In this document: positions 23,561-30,226 of the stretch, one piece after another
How the letters are laid out: every line of letters begins with the position of its first letter
Position numbering within the stretch: the first letter of the stretch is position 1
Source: Claveliimonas bilis
Lineage (GTDB): Bacteria; Bacillota; Clostridia; Lachnospirales; Lachnospiraceae
NCBI RefSeq assembly: GCF_020892095.1
Contig: NZ_AP024845.1
Coordinates: forward strand, 186,001 to 250,000
DNA: 64,000 nt
Direction: 5' to 3'
Notes under the pieces: model-generated
What the model was told of the DNA's origin: nothing
Database searches by the model: none
Seen by the model: the letters and a program-made list of their open reading frames with translations, nothing else
Program-made: the position numbers and the translations under genes

Positions 23561-23593
23561 CCACGCTAAATTGCTCTGTAATCATAACACGAA

Positions 23594-23620
23594 AGTGCTT
23601 TGCTTGTCAAGCAAAGCACT
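23594..23620 (-). terminator. Terminator of the DUF5717-DUF5716-TPR operon
   Basis: A perfect 12-base stem AGTGCTTTGCTT/AAGCAAAGCACT with a 3-base loop lies 14 bases after the TPR gene stop. The T-rich tail is weak (TTCGTGTT). Confidence 0.65.
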
Positions 23621-23634
23621 CTATAACAACATCC

Positions 23635-24402
23635 CTATTTTCCTGTTTTCCTGTATTCCTTTTTCCACTGACGGAAATCTTCTTCTGTTACATCCATATT
23701 GATCTTTTCCTCTGCCTTGCGAAGCTCTTCCTTTAAAATGGAGTCCATGCTCAGGTAGACAGGCTCCGCCGACAGCATTTTTACATACTGCGCTTCCGGC
23801 AAATAGCGGTAACAGCAGTACAGATAAGCTTTCAGCATTTTTGTATCCTGACATACCCGGAATCCTTTTTCATACATGGAGGCCGCCTCTTCATAAAGAA
23901 GCATCCGACCGTAAGCCGCACCCAGACATCCATAGACCTGTCCGTAAAATTCCTTTCCTACTGTCTCGTCCCACTCCTTGTTTACAATCCCCTGATATAC
24001 AAGAATGGCTGACGCATACTCTCCTGTCTGCAGCAGATTGTCCGCCTTATATTTTTCTCTCTCCACTTCATTCTGGCTTTTCAGACGTTCCAGCACATTA
24101 TGGATCCTTGTAATCTCTGCCGGTGAATAAATGGAAGAATGACTTAAGACGGTCAGAAGGAATTGTTCCACCGGGCCGTTCTGTTCCAACTGACTTCGCA
24201 GCTCATCTGCCAGATCATACAGTTCCAGCTCCTCCTCCAGCCAGTCGCAGAGCTGACGGTTTACGATCGTATAATCTACCAGATAGAGATTATTACAAAA
24301 ATAGTAGCACAGTTCTTCTATTGTATAGATCCTTTTATGGATTCTTGCAATCTCATACGGATGCTTTGCTTTCTTTCTATGACAAAGAATTAAACTGCCC
24401 AT
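23635..24402 (-). CDS. Tetratricopeptide-like protein, third gene of the actin-like/scaffold operon
   Basis: 255 residues, predicted all-helical and cytoplasmic (no signal or membrane segment). TPR-like helical pairs are visible around NLLQTGEYASAILVYQGIV and YGCLGAAYGRMLLYEEAASM, with a third in LKAYLYCCYRYLPEAQYV. A Cys/Tyr-rich N-terminus is followed by EELCYYFCNNLYLVDY. The ATG has AGGAGG and overlaps the upstream DUF5716-like gene by 26 bases, so synthesis is coupled. Function unknown; it is probably an adaptor for its two neighbours. Confidence 0.75.
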   Translation of the reverse strand: MGSLILCHRKKAKHPYEIARIHKRIYTIEELCYYFCNNLYLVDYTIVNRQLCDWLEEELELYDLADELRSQLEQNGPVEQFLLTVLSHSSIYSPAEITRIHNVLERLKSQNEVEREKYKADNLLQTGEYASAILVYQGIVNKEWDETVGKEFYGQVYGCLGAAYGRMLLYEEAASMYEKGFRVCQDTKMLKAYLYCCYRYLPEAQYVKMLSAEPVYLSMDSILKEELRKAEEKINMDVTEEDFRQWKKEYRKTGK

Positions 24403-25660
24403 TGCTTCCTCCTAAATGTATGGTCTTTTCCACCTGAAAATCTGTTGCCGGGAAAAACTCCCCAAATCCGGCGTCCTTAAATGTAATCCGGCAGGTCTGT
24501 TCATCTAAAAACATCACTTCGATCGTCAGACGCATCGCATAGTCTTTTCTCTCCGGCAGTCCTGCCAGCGACACTGTCTCCGCCTGGAGTTCTCCGCTGG
24601 CCAGCGATTCAATATGTATCTCAATGTCTGAGGTATCCTCAAGAAGCACATCCCACTGCCCGTCAGCCTCGTACCAGTGAGAGCCCCACTGTACAATAGG
24701 ATACCACCCTTCCTTGCCTCTTACCCGCATACGCAGACAGATCTGATCCGTCATCTTACTTTCATCCAGATAAATAGGACTGTCCTCATAATCTCTGCAT
24801 TTACGGTACGCCGTATAACAAGCCCCTTTGCTGTAGAGATTGTTGCCAAGGAAGGCTCTTCTTCCATTGCAGAGCACTTTCAAAGATGCCGGATACCAGT
24901 TGTTTTCAAAGCCTTCTCCTGTCAAATACACAGAAGAGACAACTTTTTTATCAAATACACTCTGAATAAACGCCTTGAACCGTTCATCCGCATCCTTCGC
25001 CTTGTCTACATTCAGTACAGGATAGATCGCCGCAAGTTCTTTCATATGGGCATTTGCCACCTCATCCACCGCTACGAACAGTTCATCGCCGCGCCCTCTG
25101 ACACCACGGAGACGACGCAGCATATAGGCTCTGATCTCATTCCTGTCGCAGTAAAACAAAGCAGCCTCATACTGCCATAACTCTTTAGGCTGATAAAACA
25201 TGTAATGGCAAAAGCTTTCCTTATAATCCTGCACATAGACAGAATCCTTAGCGATTCCTACGAACTGCGCAATCCCCTTCAGCATCTTACTGATATCGAT
25301 ATCTGTGCGCGGAACCGAAAAAGTCAGATATTCAATCTGCCGGAATCTCTCTAACGCCAGCTCAAAAAACTTGGCCAGAAGCCAGACCGCGTCATGATTC
25401 TTCCCTCCAATCCGGACTTTCTCCTGACGCAGCGCTTTCTGATACAGGTCAGAGACCGTGCATCCTTCATTGATCGTCGCCAGTCTTTTTGCCTCTTTGC
25501 CGTAAACCCACTGTTCCTTATAATATCCCAGGATGAGAGGAATCTGATAATTGTCTACCGCCACTTCCAGCGTTTCCGGCTCATGTTTCGCTTCGTCGTA
25601 AAAGCTGATCTGGCAATACTGGTCATTCAGTTCAATTCCTAAAATACTTCCGCCTCTCAC
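24377..25660 (-). CDS. DUF5716-like protein with actin/Hsp70-type fold features
   Basis: 427 residues from GTG 25660 (AGGAGG 7 bases upstream). The N-terminus ILGIELNDQYCQISFYDE resembles phosphate-1 of the actin/Hsp70/FtsA superfamily. Later VSSVYLTGEGFENNWYP and CNGRRAFLGNNLYSKGACY match the adenosine-side motif and the loop after it. The last 130 residues look beta-rich (WYPIVQWGSHWYEADGQWDV onward), an added domain not found in DnaK. From memory this is the Lachnospiraceae family labelled DUF5716. ATPase activity and filament formation are inferred, not shown. It is the middle gene of a three-gene operon. Confidence 0.75.
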   Translation of the reverse strand: MRGGSILGIELNDQYCQISFYDEAKHEPETLEVAVDNYQIPLILGYYKEQWVYGKEAKRLATINEGCTVSDLYQKALRQEKVRIGGKNHDAVWLLAKFFELALERFRQIEYLTFSVPRTDIDISKMLKGIAQFVGIAKDSVYVQDYKESFCHYMFYQPKELWQYEAALFYCDRNEIRAYMLRRLRGVRGRGDELFVAVDEVANAHMKELAAIYPVLNVDKAKDADERFKAFIQSVFDKKVVSSVYLTGEGFENNWYPASLKVLCNGRRAFLGNNLYSKGACYTAYRKCRDYEDSPIYLDESKMTDQICLRMRVRGKEGWYPIVQWGSHWYEADGQWDVLLEDTSDIEIHIESLASGELQAETVSLAGLPERKDYAMRLTIEVMFLDEQTCRITFKDAGFGEFFPATDFQVEKTIHLGGSNGQFNSLS

Positions 25661-25703
25661 CGTAATTCCTCCTAAGCTTTTGTACTGTTTCTACTCTCTT
25701 TTT

Positions 25704-28700
25704 TTAATATTCCCTGAAAATCTCCTCTGCCATGACGATTTCTTTCTGATAATCGATCATTGCCTGTTTTCTCTTTGCAGGAGACATGCCAGCCATCGCA
25801 TTGAGTTTGCCGTATTTCCCAATTGCCGGCACTTCCCGGGTCTGTTCCAGGATCCTCTCTTCCTGACGTATGGTTTTCTTTTCTTTTTCCTGTGTTTCCT
25901 GGAAATAATACCGAACTACATCACCCTGATAGAGGATAAAGTCCTTCACATAAATATTTTCATACATAGGCGTCAGGCTTTCGCTCTGATAACCCAGATC
26001 TTCCACAGCATCCTGGCGCATTTTATAGGAGATGCGTACCTTTCCGCCTTTCTTTGCATGATATTCAACCATAACCTTATCATAAAGCTGTGCCTCTCTA
26101 AGCCACTTATCAGGATACTTCAGATAGAACGGGAAAATAATCTGTTTCTCGCACAGCTGTCCCAGTACCTTATGCAAAACTTCCTCCACTTCATGATCAT
26201 ACTCCTTGTCCGAGTAATAATGAAGAAGCGCAATTTTGCAGATATCCGCCAGGCTTTCTCCCAGCCGATACTCGTTGACGATAATCTCAAAAATAGTGTG
26301 GCCCGTTTTCCGCCCGCTAACCAGATATTCCCTGGATACAAAGGCAAGATAGGCCTGTTTCAGACGGAAATAAGCATTTCCGTTCAGATAATACTCAACA
26401 AAAATCTCTTCCTCCTGAAACATATCTTCTGAAAAGAGCATCTGTGTAATGATCCTCTCTCCCAGCTTCCCTTCCTGGATTCCATAATCCTTCGCTGTTT
26501 TCCAAAGAGCTTTCATATCTTTTGTTGCTCCACAGAAGAAATTAACAAGATAGGTAAGGGTCACTTTATCATACTGCTGTCTCTTAAACAGTTCAAAGCA
26601 AAGATACAGAAGAAATTCATCTTCTTCATAATTCTCTTCGCGTATACGTTTGCTGCAAAGCTGAAATACCTCTTTTTCCTCAAATTCTTCCAGCCCTTTC
26701 ATACGGAGGTTTTCAAATGTCACCTCTTCTTTTTGCCCTTCTCCTCCCCAGTTATTGATATGGGACAGATACTTTTTGCACATTTCCAGATATCTGGGTT
26801 CGTAAAAAAGGCGTCTTGTCTCATAAACAATGGAATCTGTATGGTGCTGCCCTTCCATAGACTCCCATACGATCCGCGCCTCTTTGTCATAAAGATAGAC
26901 AATTGCTCCCCCTTCTGTATAAGGAACTCTCTGTTTCACTGTTCCGTCTTTTTCGATCACAAGAACACATTTCATCCCCTGCACCTTAGTTGTCACTTCA
27001 TATGCATAACAAATGTCCCTCATCGCTTCCAGACGTTCGCCTGTCATTTCTTCCTCTGTACAGAATCTTTTATAAATCACCTTCAGAGAATCATTGATAT
27101 GTCTTTTGACAAGCTGATCCCATGCAAATTCTACCATTTGTTCCCGATAACTGATATACAGATCACTTGCATACTGTTCATAGGTAATAAGGTTGGCATA
27201 CAAAAGCGCCGCCTTCTTATAATCCAGATTATTTCCATGCATAAAATAGAGGAAAATGGATCTGGGAAGCGCTTCCCTCACCCGGTCCTCCTCAATGGTT
27301 TCCATGTAATACTCATAGAGCTGTGCAATTTTAAGCTCTGCATCTACCGCTCTCTGATACCATACAAAATATCTCTGCTGCATCTTATTCCCTTTAATAA
27401 GAAGCGTGCAGATCGCATTCAGTATCATCGGCTCCTCATACATTTCATAGATCCTCTCCAGGATCCGGAACAGTCCGCTGTCATAGTGCTTCTGCTGACT
27501 GGCAAGGTTGGCCACATAAAGAGCCAGCTCTCTCGTAATAAGCCGGTATTTTGTAGCAAAATTAAGCACATGCAGTTCAAATTTTCCCAGCTTTTTCAAA
27601 AGATTGCTTCGGTCCTGATAACACAGATATGCTTTCTGGTAAAAAAGAACATGATTCGCGCCATATGAATAAAACTGCTGTTCCAAGACTTTGATCCGCC
27701 TGTAGGAATCCCTGTACTGCGGATCCAGCATCAACAGCATAGCCAGAAGCGCCCAGGAATCCTGATGCCGAAGATAGGTCTTTCCGATTTCATCAATCAC
27801 CCTCTCCACATGATTTCCGGTCTGCCGGATCAATGCGGTGAGGAAAAGATAGTAGGCGTTTGTTGTGGGATCTTTTCCAATAGCAAAACGATTGTAATTA
27901 TAATTTTCCAGAATCCACTTTGCCTCTTCCATGCGGTCGCCCTTAATATAAATATGCGCCTGAAACAGCTGCAAAGAATCATCCATCGGCGCGTAGTTCC
28001 GCATTTTTTTTGATTTTTCTATGGCGCTGTCAACCCAGCTGTTAATATCAATCCTTCCTGCCTCACACGCCACATATTCCTTCAGGATTTGTGCCATAAG
28101 AAATTCGATTTCCCGATGATTCTCATCATATTCTCCATTTTGCAAAACTTCTACTTCGTAGGTAAGAATTTCATAGGGAGTTACAAGATGAATCTTTCCG
28201 AAATTTCTTCCTGCGTGCAATTTCTCTGCATTGACAACAAATTCCAGCTCGTAAACATTACCGACAAAATCATCTGTCGTAATCTCCGGACGGCTGACTG
28301 TAATAAATCCGCCCTCCGACTCTATTCTCACAGGCATAAATCCCCATGTGTTTTTGATAACAGTCAGGCTCCCTTTTGTAGACTCTTTCAAATCCTCAAA
28401 GAGCATTCCTTCTCCTTGGAGCGTCAGAAAAATACACTCTTTTTGCTTAATTCCGACTAAGAACTCTTCCATGGCCTGCTCATCAAGGGACCATTTTCTC
28501 ATATTATCATATAAATGAAAAACCCGGGGATTTTCATATTTTAAAACTTCATAAAATTCTCTGGAGCGGAACAGCCTCTGCGCCTCTGAAAAGTCTTTGA
28601 TAGCCAGTCTCTTAAAGTCATCTGTGCTCTGCACCTTTCCATAATTTGTCATGACATAGGGTTTTTCTATAATTGCGGTAAAAGGCACTTCAAATTCTCC

Positions 28701-29003
28701 GCCGTTGCACACAATAGAAAATTTTCCCTGCTCCACATGTCCCGGCGTAAGTCCTTTCCCGTCGTACTCGAATTGGATTGTCACAGGGTTTCCTTCAAAG
28801 CCCTGCTCAATGCAGTGCATACGAAAAGAAGACGGATAAACAATTCCTCGTATTGCTCCGTCTGTCCGGCTTTTCATCGTAAAACTTCCCCGGTACACTT
28901 CTCCCTCTCCAATGGTGAGGATCAGACATGTGTCATTAAAGACAATCTCCGGATGTACCACTTGAAAGTCCCCTTTTGAAAATTTTTTAATTTTATTTTT
29001 CAA
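25704..29003 (-). CDS. DUF5717-like giant helical-repeat protein
   Basis: About 1,099 residues. The frame opens at GTG 29012, but that codon touches the SD. TTG 29003 has AGAGG 8 bases upstream and is preferred, though uncertain. No signal peptide. The first 300 residues are beta-rich with repeated sheet-like segments (VFNDTCLILTIGEGEVYRGSF; GKIHLVTPYEILTYEVEVL), perhaps two immunoglobulin-like domains. From about 310 to 900 there is a long run of helical hairpins like an alpha-solenoid (AHIYIKGDRMEEAKWILENY; TYEEAK-like pairs). The C-terminus is basic (SPAKRKQAMIDYQKEIVM). Resembles families annotated DUF5717. Probably a scaffold for the actin-like and TPR partners downstream. Function unknown. 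Confidence 0.75.
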   Translation of the reverse strand: MKNKIKKFSKGDFQVVHPEIVFNDTCLILTIGEGEVYRGSFTMKSRTDGAIRGIVYPSSFRMHCIEQGFEGNPVTIQFEYDGKGLTPGHVEQGKFSIVCNGGEFEVPFTAIIEKPYVMTNYGKVQSTDDFKRLAIKDFSEAQRLFRSREFYEVLKYENPRVFHLYDNMRKWSLDEQAMEEFLVGIKQKECIFLTLQGEGMLFEDLKESTKGSLTVIKNTWGFMPVRIESEGGFITVSRPEITTDDFVGNVYELEFVVNAEKLHAGRNFGKIHLVTPYEILTYEVEVLQNGEYDENHREIEFLMAQILKEYVACEAGRIDINSWVDSAIEKSKKMRNYAPMDDSLQLFQAHIYIKGDRMEEAKWILENYNYNRFAIGKDPTTNAYYLFLTALIRQTGNHVERVIDEIGKTYLRHQDSWALLAMLLMLDPQYRDSYRRIKVLEQQFYSYGANHVLFYQKAYLCYQDRSNLLKKLGKFELHVLNFATKYRLITRELALYVANLASQQKHYDSGLFRILERIYEMYEEPMILNAICTLLIKGNKMQQRYFVWYQRAVDAELKIAQLYEYYMETIEEDRVREALPRSIFLYFMHGNNLDYKKAALLYANLITYEQYASDLYISYREQMVEFAWDQLVKRHINDSLKVIYKRFCTEEEMTGERLEAMRDICYAYEVTTKVQGMKCVLVIEKDGTVKQRVPYTEGGAIVYLYDKEARIVWESMEGQHHTDSIVYETRRLFYEPRYLEMCKKYLSHINNWGGEGQKEEVTFENLRMKGLEEFEEKEVFQLCSKRIREENYEEDEFLLYLCFELFKRQQYDKVTLTYLVNFFCGATKDMKALWKTAKDYGIQEGKLGERIITQMLFSEDMFQEEEIFVEYYLNGNAYFRLKQAYLAFVSREYLVSGRKTGHTIFEIIVNEYRLGESLADICKIALLHYYSDKEYDHEVEEVLHKVLGQLCEKQIIFPFYLKYPDKWLREAQLYDKVMVEYHAKKGGKVRISYKMRQDAVEDLGYQSESLTPMYENIYVKDFILYQGDVVRYYFQETQEKEKKTIRQEERILEQTREVPAIGKYGKLNAMAGMSPAKRKQAMIDYQKEIVMAEEIFREY

Positions 29004-29053
29004 GCCTTCCACCTCTTCTTGCGTTGCATTTTTCTTTAAACATACTATAATGG

Positions 29054-29083
29054 ATTATAGCATTATTCTGACAAGTATGGCAA
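29054..29083 (-). promoter_or_regulatory. Promoter of the DUF5717-DUF5716-TPR operon
   Basis: Minus-strand TTGCCA (29078-29083), an 18-base spacer and a consensus TATAAT (29054-29059), about 50 bases before the start. It lies in the short divergent gap shared with the aminotransferase gene. Confidence 0.65.
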
Positions 29084-29125: not shown

Positions 29126-30226
29126 ATGCAAAACGCGAAACAGCCCGCTTTTCACGGAAGCGATCTGGAACAGATTGCAGAATATTACAATCTTCCACAA
29201 AAAGAGATCATAAGCTTTGGAGCCAATGTAAACCCGCTGGGACTTTCCGCCCGGGTCAAAGAAAAACTTGCTGAAAATCTGGATATTATTTCCAGATATC
29301 CCGACCGTAATTATACTACTTTAAAGGAAACCATATCCGCGTACTGCAAAATTCCTGTCCAGTACATCGTCACCGGCAACGGCTCCACAGAACTGATCTC
29401 TCTTTTAATCACACAGCTTAAAGCCTCTCATGCAGTCGTTATCGGTCCCACTTATTCTGAATACCAAAGAGAACTTGCCCTTACCGGCGGACATATCTCC
29501 TTCTATACATTAAAAGAATCGGAAAATTTCTGCCTGGATATCAATGATTTTATGGAACAGCTTCCGAAAGATGCAGATCTTATCATTCTATGCAACCCTA
29601 ACAATCCTACTTCTTCCGCTGTCCCTATCTCTGATTTGGAAAACCTCATAGCTTCCTGCCGCAAAAGAGGTGTTTTTGTTATGGTGGATGAGACATATGC
29701 AGAATTTGCCCCTTCTGTAGATGAGATCTCCGCCGTTCCTCTGACTCGCTCTTTCGACAACCTTATGGTTATCCGCGGCGTTTCCAAATTTTTTGCAGCT
29801 CCGGGCCTTCGCCTGGGCTATGGGATCACCAGCAGCAAGGACTTTCTTAAGGCTCTTCAGATTCATCAAAATCCCTGGAGCGTCAGCAGCATTGCTGCCT
29901 TTGCCGGGGAAGAAATGCTGAAGGATACCGGGTATATCGAAAAGACCCGGAACCTTATCTTTTCCGAGAAAAAGCGGATCTGTCAGGTTCTGGACGGCTT
30001 TCAAAATGCCAGATACTATGAGCCTTATGCCAATTTCATTTTAGTGCGTATCGAAAAGGAGGGACTCTCCTCCTTCCAGGTATTTGAGCATGCCATCCGG
30101 CAGAAAATGATGATCCGCGACTGTTCTTCTTTTGAAGAACTGGAGGGAGAATATATCCGTTTCTGTATTATGCGCCCCGAGGATAATGACCGGCTTTTGA
30201 AATGCCTGGGTGAAATTCTTGCATAA
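29126..30226 (+). CDS. PLP-dependent class I/II aminotransferase, CobD/HisC-like
   Basis: 366 residues. One of the few plus-strand genes; GGGGGA lies before the ATG. Fold-type I PLP enzyme: GNGSTELISLL (phosphate loop), CNPNNPT (157-161, Asn binding PLP), VDETYAEF (Asp188), and the Schiff-base Lys221 in GVSKFFAAPGLRLGYG. These fit the group containing L-threonine-phosphate decarboxylase (CobD) and histidinol-phosphate aminotransferase. No cobalamin or histidine genes are near, so the substrate is undecided. The opening FHGSDLEQIAEYYNL and SFGANVNPLGL are more like CobD. The gene is monocistronic with its own terminator. Confidence 0.85.
   Translation: MQNAKQPAFHGSDLEQIAEYYNLPQKEIISFGANVNPLGLSARVKEKLAENLDIISRYPDRNYTTLKETISAYCKIPVQYIVTGNGSTELISLLITQLKASHAVVIGPTYSEYQRELALTGGHISFYTLKESENFCLDINDFMEQLPKDADLIILCNPNNPTSSAVPISDLENLIASCRKRGVFVMVDETYAEFAPSVDEISAVPLTRSFDNLMVIRGVSKFFAAPGLRLGYGITSSKDFLKALQIHQNPWSVSSIAAFAGEEMLKDTGYIEKTRNLIFSEKKRICQVLDGFQNARYYEPYANFILVRIEKEGLSSFQVFEHAIRQKMMIRDCSSFEELEGEYIRFCIMRPEDNDRLLKCLGEILA

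Follow-up and report, generated by a model that had tools for sequence, protein, structure and literature searches.

Ssz1, a subunit of the eukaryotic ribosome-associated complex (RAC, Ssz1-Zuo1), has a complete SBD-beta and no SBD-alpha lid, does not hydrolyse ATP and works with permanent partners (PMC7083937). Published variants of the GAP1-N2 conflict systems bring together an Hsp70 and a GrpE with a further Hsp70 that lacks the peptide-binding domain and with a beta-repeat protein carrying fused TPRs (PMC7159879). The locus described here, located in a window of 64,000 nucleotides of the Claveliimonas bilis contig NZ_AP024845.1, encodes a DUF5717 protein, a DUF5716 protein and a TPR protein, and has a larger counterpart in sister families of Lachnospiraceae. 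The DUF5716 protein shares with Ssz1 the Hsp70 fold with an SBD-beta and no lid, a likeness of fold only, in which Ssz1 (VIA Z 21.9 over 274 residues, rmsd 3.6) is tied with DnaK (Z 21.5 over residues 4-427). However, Ssz1 still binds ATP, whereas in DUF5716 the loss extends further into the ATP site and includes subdomain IIB; and Ssz1 sits with a J-domain partner on the ribosome and works with the active Ssb, whereas DUF5716 is accompanied by a PapD/ASH-solenoid scaffold and a TPR protein, with no J-domain found among the trio and no known ribosome link. Compared in this way, DUF5716 and Ssz1 are best described as resembling each other in their working parts and not as members of one system.

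The larger operon also recalls the DnaK/GrpE/DnaJ system, with its three intact DnaK-like Hsp70s (whose fold DUF5716 shares) and a GrpE-domain protein, but these Hsp70s are lidless, GrpE is joined to a long coiled coil, the operon yielded no J-protein, and only the dead Hsp70 persists in Lachnospiraceae. With the GAP1-N2 variants, it has in common the association of an Hsp70, a GrpE, a second, reduced Hsp70 and a beta-domain protein with TPRs. The locus differs from them by the fusion of a VWA domain to an Hsp70, by gene lists in which no GTPase or GAP1 component was recognised by eye, and by a single-copy, near-universal instead of sporadic presence.

Operon organization and distribution

Some of the dominant butyrate producers in the human gut belong to Lachnospiraceae. 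The locus is carried by 148 of the 150 Lachnospiraceae genera examined, and DUF5716 is present in single copy in 145 of them; three of the five genera without it retain DUF5717, in broken assemblies. This operon of practically every genus of the family had no previously assigned function: none is recorded for DUF5716_C (PF18980) or DUF5717 (PF18984/PF18983) in the Pfam library used, and a literature search for both names returned no functional paper. The family names given in the initial annotation were correct (DUF5717_N, E 6e-210; DUF5717, E 5e-96; DUF5716_C, E 2e-106), with scores above the curated cut-offs (355.7, 699.8 and 322 bits for the DUF5716/DUF5717 families), and an NCBIfam search gave chance matches only.

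The three genes are closely packed on the minus strand in the order DUF5717, DUF5716, TPR protein (Table 1), with 43 bp between the first two and an overlap between the last two whose extent had been given exactly. They had been proposed to form a co-expressed operon. Chance falls far short of explaining their shared orientation. About 110 more loci of Lachnospiraceae show the same colinear arrangement, the genes being separated by median gaps of 14 and 7 bp, and DUF5716 and the TPR protein are fused into a single ORF in five other genera; the conserved order and the fusions bear out the proposal. The TTG start of DUF5717 at 29003 is preceded by a well-spaced Shine-Dalgarno sequence, AGAGGTGG; a mechanical caller gave an alternative GTG start at 29012 (1,102 aa).

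Table 1. Features of the locus, in positions of the window.
Feature	Position	Strand	Details
Perfect inverted repeat 3' of the TPR gene	23590..23624	-	13-bp stem; -21 kcal/mol, z -3.4
TPR protein	23635..24402	-	255 aa; ATG; AGGAGG
Reading-frame overlap DUF5716/TPR	24377..24402	-	exactly 26 bases
DUF5716, degenerate Hsp70	24377..25660	-	427 aa; GTG; AGGAGG 7 nt upstream; PF18980
DUF5717 scaffold	25704..29003	-	1,099 aa from TTG 29003; PF18984, PF18983
Candidate sigma-A promoter	29054..29083	-	TTGCCA-N18-TATAAT, extended -10; 11/12 consensus match
Class-I aminotransferase, divergent	29126..30226	+	outside the system; synteny marker

The proteins evolve under purifying selection (dN/dS about 0.06), with a median identity across the family of about 26-29%, versus 69% for purF. 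The trio had been thought to be restricted to Lachnospiraceae-like bacteria. It is indeed near-exclusive to Lachnospiraceae, the only group with matches in a scan of public contigs with alignment A7, but no fewer than 13 other families of the order have a larger, catalytically intact version. Weak matches outside the order (G642 and G760 in the phylum, G265 in the class) correspond to unrelated proteins in unrelated neighbourhoods.

A degenerate Hsp70 and its partners

DUF5716 had been assigned to the actin/Hsp70 superfamily. Profiles and the AlphaFold2 (AF2) model confirm this fold and place the protein more precisely among the Hsp70s instead of among actin-like ATPases in general. The solved-structure search with the single window sequence gave no match, and family profiles were needed: profile A1 of the DUF5716 family matches DnaK (E 1.4e-14), and hhalign aligns Lachnospiraceae DUF5716 with the intact Hsp70s of the larger operon (97.7%, E 1e-12). 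The window protein itself scores 9.4 bits against PF00012 (HSP70), short of the cut-off of 20.6 bits, with a weak, N-terminal similarity (E 0.35), while its orthologue in the larger operon of locus L038 scores 63.6 bits. With the AF2 model (pLDDT 84, pTM 0.82), the 50 best listed matches in both fold searches, by Foldseek in the PDB (best E 1e-18) and by VIA, are all of Hsp70 type, and actin, MreB and FtsA are absent among them.

The model shows a two-lobed nucleotide-binding domain of Hsp70 type (residues ~3-293, VIA Z about 21), followed by an SBD-beta (~300-415), the alignment to DnaK extending through residue 415-427. The beta-rich domain previously described as an addition is thus the Hsp70 SBD-beta itself; DUF5716_C also matches the SBD-beta region (residues 415-535) of an intact operon Hsp70. 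The protein stops after this domain and the SBD-alpha lid is missing. The retained SBD-beta contains DxGFGExFP, a motif that ranks among the best conserved in the family, which suggests that this domain still has some role.

We surveyed the catalytic motifs in an alignment of 110 DUF5716 homologues against DnaK. Lys70 is present in none of the 110, the threonines of phosphate-1 (GTTN) are replaced and the GGGT loop of phosphate-2 is lost in essentially all of them, and subdomain IIB is mostly deleted, the segment between phosphate-2 and the adenosine motif measuring 55 versus 143 residues. The adenosine-loop glycine is conserved in 110/110. Two acidic residues involved in holding Mg in DnaK are conserved in most members of the family, with Asp at the Asp8 position in 106/110, and Asp (78/110) or Glu (15/110) at the phosphate-2 Asp position; the window protein has Glu and Tyr there. 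Loss of Glu171 was not counted, since MAFFT places a non-acidic residue at this position and a one-residue shift aligns a common Asp. Judging from these motifs, DUF5716 is homologous to Hsp70s without being an active one. Since the Mg-holding positions are mostly kept, it may still bind a nucleotide without hydrolysing it.

DUF5717 corresponds in its AF2 model (pLDDT 84.8, with a pTM of 0.47 that indicates low global confidence) to the predicted succession of beta-domains and alpha-solenoid. Two PapD/ASH-like Ig domains (residues ~22-117 and 193-294) are followed by an alpha-solenoid (297-668), a small beta domain (670-735), a second solenoid (739-973) and a C-terminal beta domain (979-1054). 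The Ig domains match ASH/PapD-like domains with VIA Z-scores of 10-12.9, the first resembling FimC (Z 11, rmsd 2.0) and the second domains of HYDIN and OCRL (Z 10.7-10.8), and DUF5717 is reminiscent of proteins with ASH domains and solenoids that take part in large assemblies. A PADLOC match of DUF5717 to Cas2b (E 6e-4) was regarded as generic or due to chance. Profiles likewise agree with the TPR-like nature assigned to the third protein, in which a conserved N-terminal region of ~110 aa precedes about two TPRs (~115-190). It is orthologous to a 387-aa protein with six TPR stretches in the sister families. Its profile also matches the TPRs of Hsp70/Hsp90 co-chaperones such as STI1 and TAH1; these matches are generic and strongest to consensus TPRs.

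In other families of the order (at least 13), seven or eight genes make up the syntenic locus. They encode DUF5717, which is often split, an intact Hsp70, a coiled-coil GrpE-domain protein, the DUF5716 orthologue, another intact Hsp70, an Hsp70-VWA fusion that is likewise intact, and the TPR protein. The intact Hsp70s have no SBD-alpha, and in one of them VWA stands where the lid would be. The domain of GrpE, the nucleotide-exchange factor of Hsp70s, is fused to a long coiled coil, and the corresponding profile retrieved only ordinary GrpEs of 180-330 aa across the phylum. No J-domain was detected in the three window proteins or in the seven operon proteins of L038. PADLOC matches of operon Hsp70s and of the TPR protein to PDC models were again dismissed as generic or chance matches. 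The DUF5716 orthologue is already degenerate in the larger operon. In the tree, DUF5716 groups with these degenerate copies, sharing a 100/99 node with the f72 copy. In BLAST, the degenerate copies come nearest to one of the intact operon Hsp70s, in agreement with the proposed direction of change. Lachnospiraceae have lost all active Hsp70s of the operon together with GrpE, and have kept the dead Hsp70, the scaffold and the TPR protein.

Possible functions of the trio

We consider it rather probable that the trio descends by reduction from a dedicated multi-Hsp70 chaperone machine, and that DUF5716 would be a non-hydrolysing, lidless peptide-binding subunit of a cytoplasmic scaffold. The three proteins of Lachnospiraceae would form one cytoplasmic complex, with DUF5717 providing the frame through its two PapD/ASH-like domains and long solenoid, and the TPR protein joined to DUF5716, sometimes as a single chain; the fusion in five genera supports such a physical link. 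The lidless SBD-beta may hold a short hydrophobic stretch, belonging either to DUF5717 or to a client, independently of any ATP cycle, and DUF5716 could for this reason act as a constitutive, low-affinity holdase or adaptor, similar to Ssz1. Among the roles suggested in the initial annotation, that of a dedicated chaperone comes nearest, although the active chaperones have been lost. A surface-organising role found no support; no transmembrane or signal segment was noticed on plain inspection of the three proteins.

It is rather unlikely, in our opinion, that the trio instead serves as a RAC- or Hsp110-like partner that recruits or regulates the sole canonical DnaK at a particular site, in replacement of the lost operon Hsp70s. 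The only full Hsp70 of the window genome is indeed a 629-aa DnaK, the best structural matches of DUF5716 include two partners of active Hsp70s (Ssz1 and Sse1/Hsp110), and the profile of the TPR protein also matches co-chaperone TPRs. However, the Hsp110 and Ssz1 matches are tied with ordinary DnaK, the TPR similarity is generic, no J-domain was found in the trio, and the original Hsp70 partners and GrpE of the operon are gone. The loss of the catalytic site, the fast divergence of a strongly constrained fold, and the resemblance of DUF5717 to components of large assemblies would fit a DUF5716 that is a mere fold module, without peptide binding, in a structural or cytoskeletal assembly based on DUF5717; the retention in the model of the SBD-beta, with its conserved motif, makes this improbable.

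The idea of an ATP-driven assembly, powered by ATP cycling of DUF5716, agrees with the Hsp70 fold, including the weak PF00012 similarity, and with the conserved adenosine-loop glycine and Asp8 position. It is nevertheless very unlikely, given the loss of Lys70 and of both phosphate loops, the shrunken IIB and the absent lid. An origin as the relic of a GAP1-N2 GTPase-type conflict (defence) system, to which the composition of the larger operon would point by its resemblance to the published Hsp70/GrpE variants (PMC7159879), appears equally remote: no GTPase was recognised by eye in the gene lists within ~10-18 kb of the larger operons, the near-universal, single-copy and vertical presence is unlike that of defence islands, and the PADLOC matches are weak and at the domain level only.

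The preferred reading of a reduced multi-Hsp70 machine can be extended, in a way that we regard as doubtful, to an undescribed machine of the order, made of three intact lidless Hsp70s (including the one with VWA) and a dead one, together with a GrpE of its own, a PapD/ASH-solenoid scaffold and a TPR protein. Stripped in Lachnospiraceae to its dead-Hsp70 core, it might have become a near-universal housekeeping platform, a bacterial counterpart of RAC for nascent chains or for one dedicated client.

With DUF5716 recognised as a degenerate Hsp70, and with the larger operon of active Hsp70s and GrpE in the sister families, the two DUFs become a chaperone problem open to experiment. The locus is also a clear case from nature of a machine from which every engine disappeared while selection maintained the dead one; what it could not do without was evidently the non-catalytic subunit.

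Transcription signals and neighbouring gene

A single promoter and a terminator had been proposed for the operon. The candidate promoter has a near-consensus sequence, but sites of this kind are no more frequent in our scan than expected from shuffled sequences. The downstream hairpin combines a perfect stem with a poor T-run (TTTCGTGTT), and the loop contains TTGACA (23610), a candidate promoter element of the downstream ABC-transporter gene. The hairpin could therefore be a terminator and/or an operator. On the other side of the operon, the aminotransferase gene faces DUF5717 head-to-head in 62 of the 100 loci from Lachnospiraceae, and it is also present at the larger-operon loci L185, L187, L188 and L189 of other families.

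DUF5716 as a degenerate Hsp70 and its partners

The DUF5716 family profile, which includes distant orthologues, directly matches DnaK (E 1.4e-14). The best PDB matches listed for the AlphaFold2 model (55 sequences, pLDDT 84, pTM 0.82) are all Hsp70-type and span the nucleotide-binding domain and the substrate-binding sandwich (SBD-beta); in VIA-align, Ssz1 (Z 21.9) and DnaK (Z 21.5) are effectively tied. Because of this span, the beta-rich domain regarded as an addition in the initial annotation is present but corresponds to the SBD-beta of Hsp70s. The SBD-alpha lid is missing. Among 110 Lachnospiraceae sequences, none retains Lys70, and other residues take the place of GTTN in the phosphate-1 loop and of GGGT in the phosphate-2 loop. 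The phosphate-2 and adenosine motifs are separated by 55 residues, versus 143 in DnaK, so that subdomain IIB is mostly lost. Judging from these sequences, the catalytic apparatus of Lachnospiraceae DUF5716 is gone. Binding of nucleotide without hydrolysis is possible, since Asp8, the first acidic position, is kept in 106/110 sequences (the window protein has Glu there) and the glycine of the adenosine loop in 110/110.

The DUF5717 model (pLDDT 84.8, pTM 0.47) comprises two PapD/ASH-like Ig domains, a long alpha-solenoid that a small beta domain interrupts, and another beta domain at the C-terminus. The Ig domains resemble FimC/PapD-type chaperone domains, HYDIN, OCRL and CEP192 (Z 10-12.9). 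The profile of the third protein matches TPRs.

A larger operon in sister families

In an order-wide scan, 13 further families showed DUF5716-like genes, most often as a pair of matches ~1.6 kb apart. The larger operon was read at nine loci (families f72, f73, f75, f79, f83, f85, f88 and, twice, f90), all with a single gene order. DUF5717 is followed by an intact Hsp70 of about 558 aa and by a coiled-coil protein that bears a GrpE domain at its C-terminus (PF01025, E 3e-13) and is reduced to 279 aa in f72. Next come the DUF5716 orthologue, of about 470-540 aa, another intact Hsp70, of about 546 aa, and a third intact one, of about 692 aa, that carries a fused VWA domain; a TPR protein of about 385 aa with six TPR stretches closes the series. 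All tabulated catalytic residues are present in the three intact Hsp70s in every sequence examined, and Lys70, Thr199 and GGGT are already missing from the DUF5716 orthologue (8/8 sequences). DUF5717 is often encoded by two adjacent genes, for the PapD/ASH part (about 390-420 aa) and the solenoid (about 885-905 aa), as at loci L041, L042, L044, L186, L188 and L193; the single Lachnospiraceae gene is therefore probably a fusion.

In the Hsp70-VWA protein, the C-terminal VWA domain (PF00092, E 2e-10; DTTGS metal-site motif) occupies exactly the position expected for the SBD-alpha lid, a domain architecture for which we know of no precedent in the literature. In several families, proteins of 380-480 aa with a coiled-coil and/or membrane-like character directly adjoin the operon and could possibly be a membrane anchor.

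Lachnospiraceae DUF5717 matches its larger-operon counterpart with an hhalign probability of 100%, and the window-type TPR protein matches the six-TPR orthologue at 99.8%. In 62/100 Lachnospiraceae loci DUF5717 is flanked by a divergent aminotransferase, which also flanks the larger operon in f79, f88 and f90 (L185, L187, L188, L189), and a valyl-tRNA synthetase lies near the opposite end in several loci of both kinds. These common neighbours mark the loci as orthologous. The full-length GrpE-coiled-coil protein occurs in families having the larger operon and in 0/9 Lachnospiraceae tested. The extra Hsp70 matches listed in 40 Lachnospiraceae genomes resemble MreB or DnaK or HscC-like copies; the length and score of Hsp70-VWA are not seen in any of them.

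In an unrooted 55-sequence tree, Lachnospiraceae DUF5716 falls in one clade that groups with the f72 copy (support 100/99) and adjoins the other degenerate copies, with the intact Hsp70s and DnaK across a 100/100 branch. By BLAST, a 551-aa intact operon Hsp70 is nearest to the degenerate copies. The simplest reading, with details uncertain given long branches and the unrooted tree, is that an operon Hsp70 would have been duplicated, that one duplicate would have lost its ATPase, and that the Lachnospiraceae ancestor would have lost the three active Hsp70s and GrpE, f72 being an intermediate. Three genomes (G387, G406, G349) carry the GrpE-coiled-coil gene with no DUF5716 member apparently detected, which may reflect an additional step of loss or a DUF5716 copy that has diverged strongly.

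Conservation and possible role of the trio

DUF5716 is single-copy in 145/150 sampled Lachnospiraceae genera, with a second match in two of the 145. Three of the five others have DUF5717, cut off by the end of a contig or located in an incomplete, fragmented assembly; neither gene was found in two of the 150. In a class-wide sample (n=196 genomes), convincing DUF5717 matches are confined to Lachnospiraceae. Contig permitting, the trio is colinear in 32 further loci and 80 named loci (including Roseburia, Pseudobutyrivibrio, Butyrivibrio and Agathobacter), with median intergenic gaps of 14 and 7 bp. In five genera, a single reading frame encodes DUF5716 together with the TPR protein, independent evidence for joint function. 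Median identity to the window copies is 26-29% across the family, compared with 69% for purF (nine loci only) and 49% for the adjacent aminotransferase. Despite this fast divergence, dN/dS is only ~0.05-0.07 between near relatives, so the genes are functional. In the Butyrivibrio fibrisolvens 16/4 draft, DUF5717 is in two frames (627 + 536 aa) beside a short TPR protein; the break is likely a sequencing error.

Our search of open-licence PMC papers found none on the function of DUF5716 or DUF5717, nor any that describes the larger operon. Most likely, the trio forms one cytoplasmic complex, in which DUF5716 would bind peptide or a partner constitutively via its lidless SBD-beta and DUF5717 would serve as the frame. 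The best functional parallel, we infer, would be Ssz1 of the eukaryotic ribosome-associated complex, which lacks a lid, binds ATP without hydrolysing it, gains stability from its partner and holds on to nascent chains at low affinity (PMC7083937). Rival readings are an ATP-driven machine; a purely structural DUF5716 module; a regulator of DnaK, the one other full Hsp70 in the window genome; and a relic of a conflict system, such systems containing Hsp70/GrpE having been described (PMC7159879).

The window locus

Coordinates of the trio and of associated features
Feature	Locus	Coordinates	Strand	Remarks
DUF5717	window	29003 or 29012 to 25704	-	reading frame, Pfam match
DUF5716	window	25660-24377	-	reading frame, Pfam match
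TPR-like protein	window	24402-23635	-	reading frame
Class-I aminotransferase (CobD/HisC-like)	window	29126-30226	+	head-to-head with DUF5717
Hairpin after TPR gene	window	23581-23610	-	13-bp perfect stem; loop contains TTGACA
Hsp70-VWA	L038	5495-7573	-	orthologues at other loci
Coiled-coil/membrane-like	L186	4828-6150	-	adjoins larger operon
Coiled-coil/membrane-like	L190	10195-11643	+	adjoins larger operon
Coiled-coil/membrane-like	L040	4692-5852		adjoins larger operon
Coiled-coil/membrane-like	L041	4099-5238		adjoins larger operon
Coiled-coil/membrane-like	L193	5226-6443		adjoins larger operon
DUF5717 in two frames	L101	6435-9967		B. fibrisolvens 16/4 draft

The three reading frames, and the 26 bases shared by those of DUF5716 and the TPR-like protein, lie exactly where the initial annotation had placed them, and a Pfam search confirmed both family names that it gave. 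A consensus promoter is present upstream of DUF5717, but the promoter scan overall was not above chance. The hairpin 3′ of the TPR gene is perfect, but it has a weak T-run, and the hairpin shares bases with the candidate promoter of the next gene downstream, a polar-amino-acid ABC transporter. Since the TTGACA of that candidate promoter lies inside the loop, the hairpin may be an operator for the transporter.
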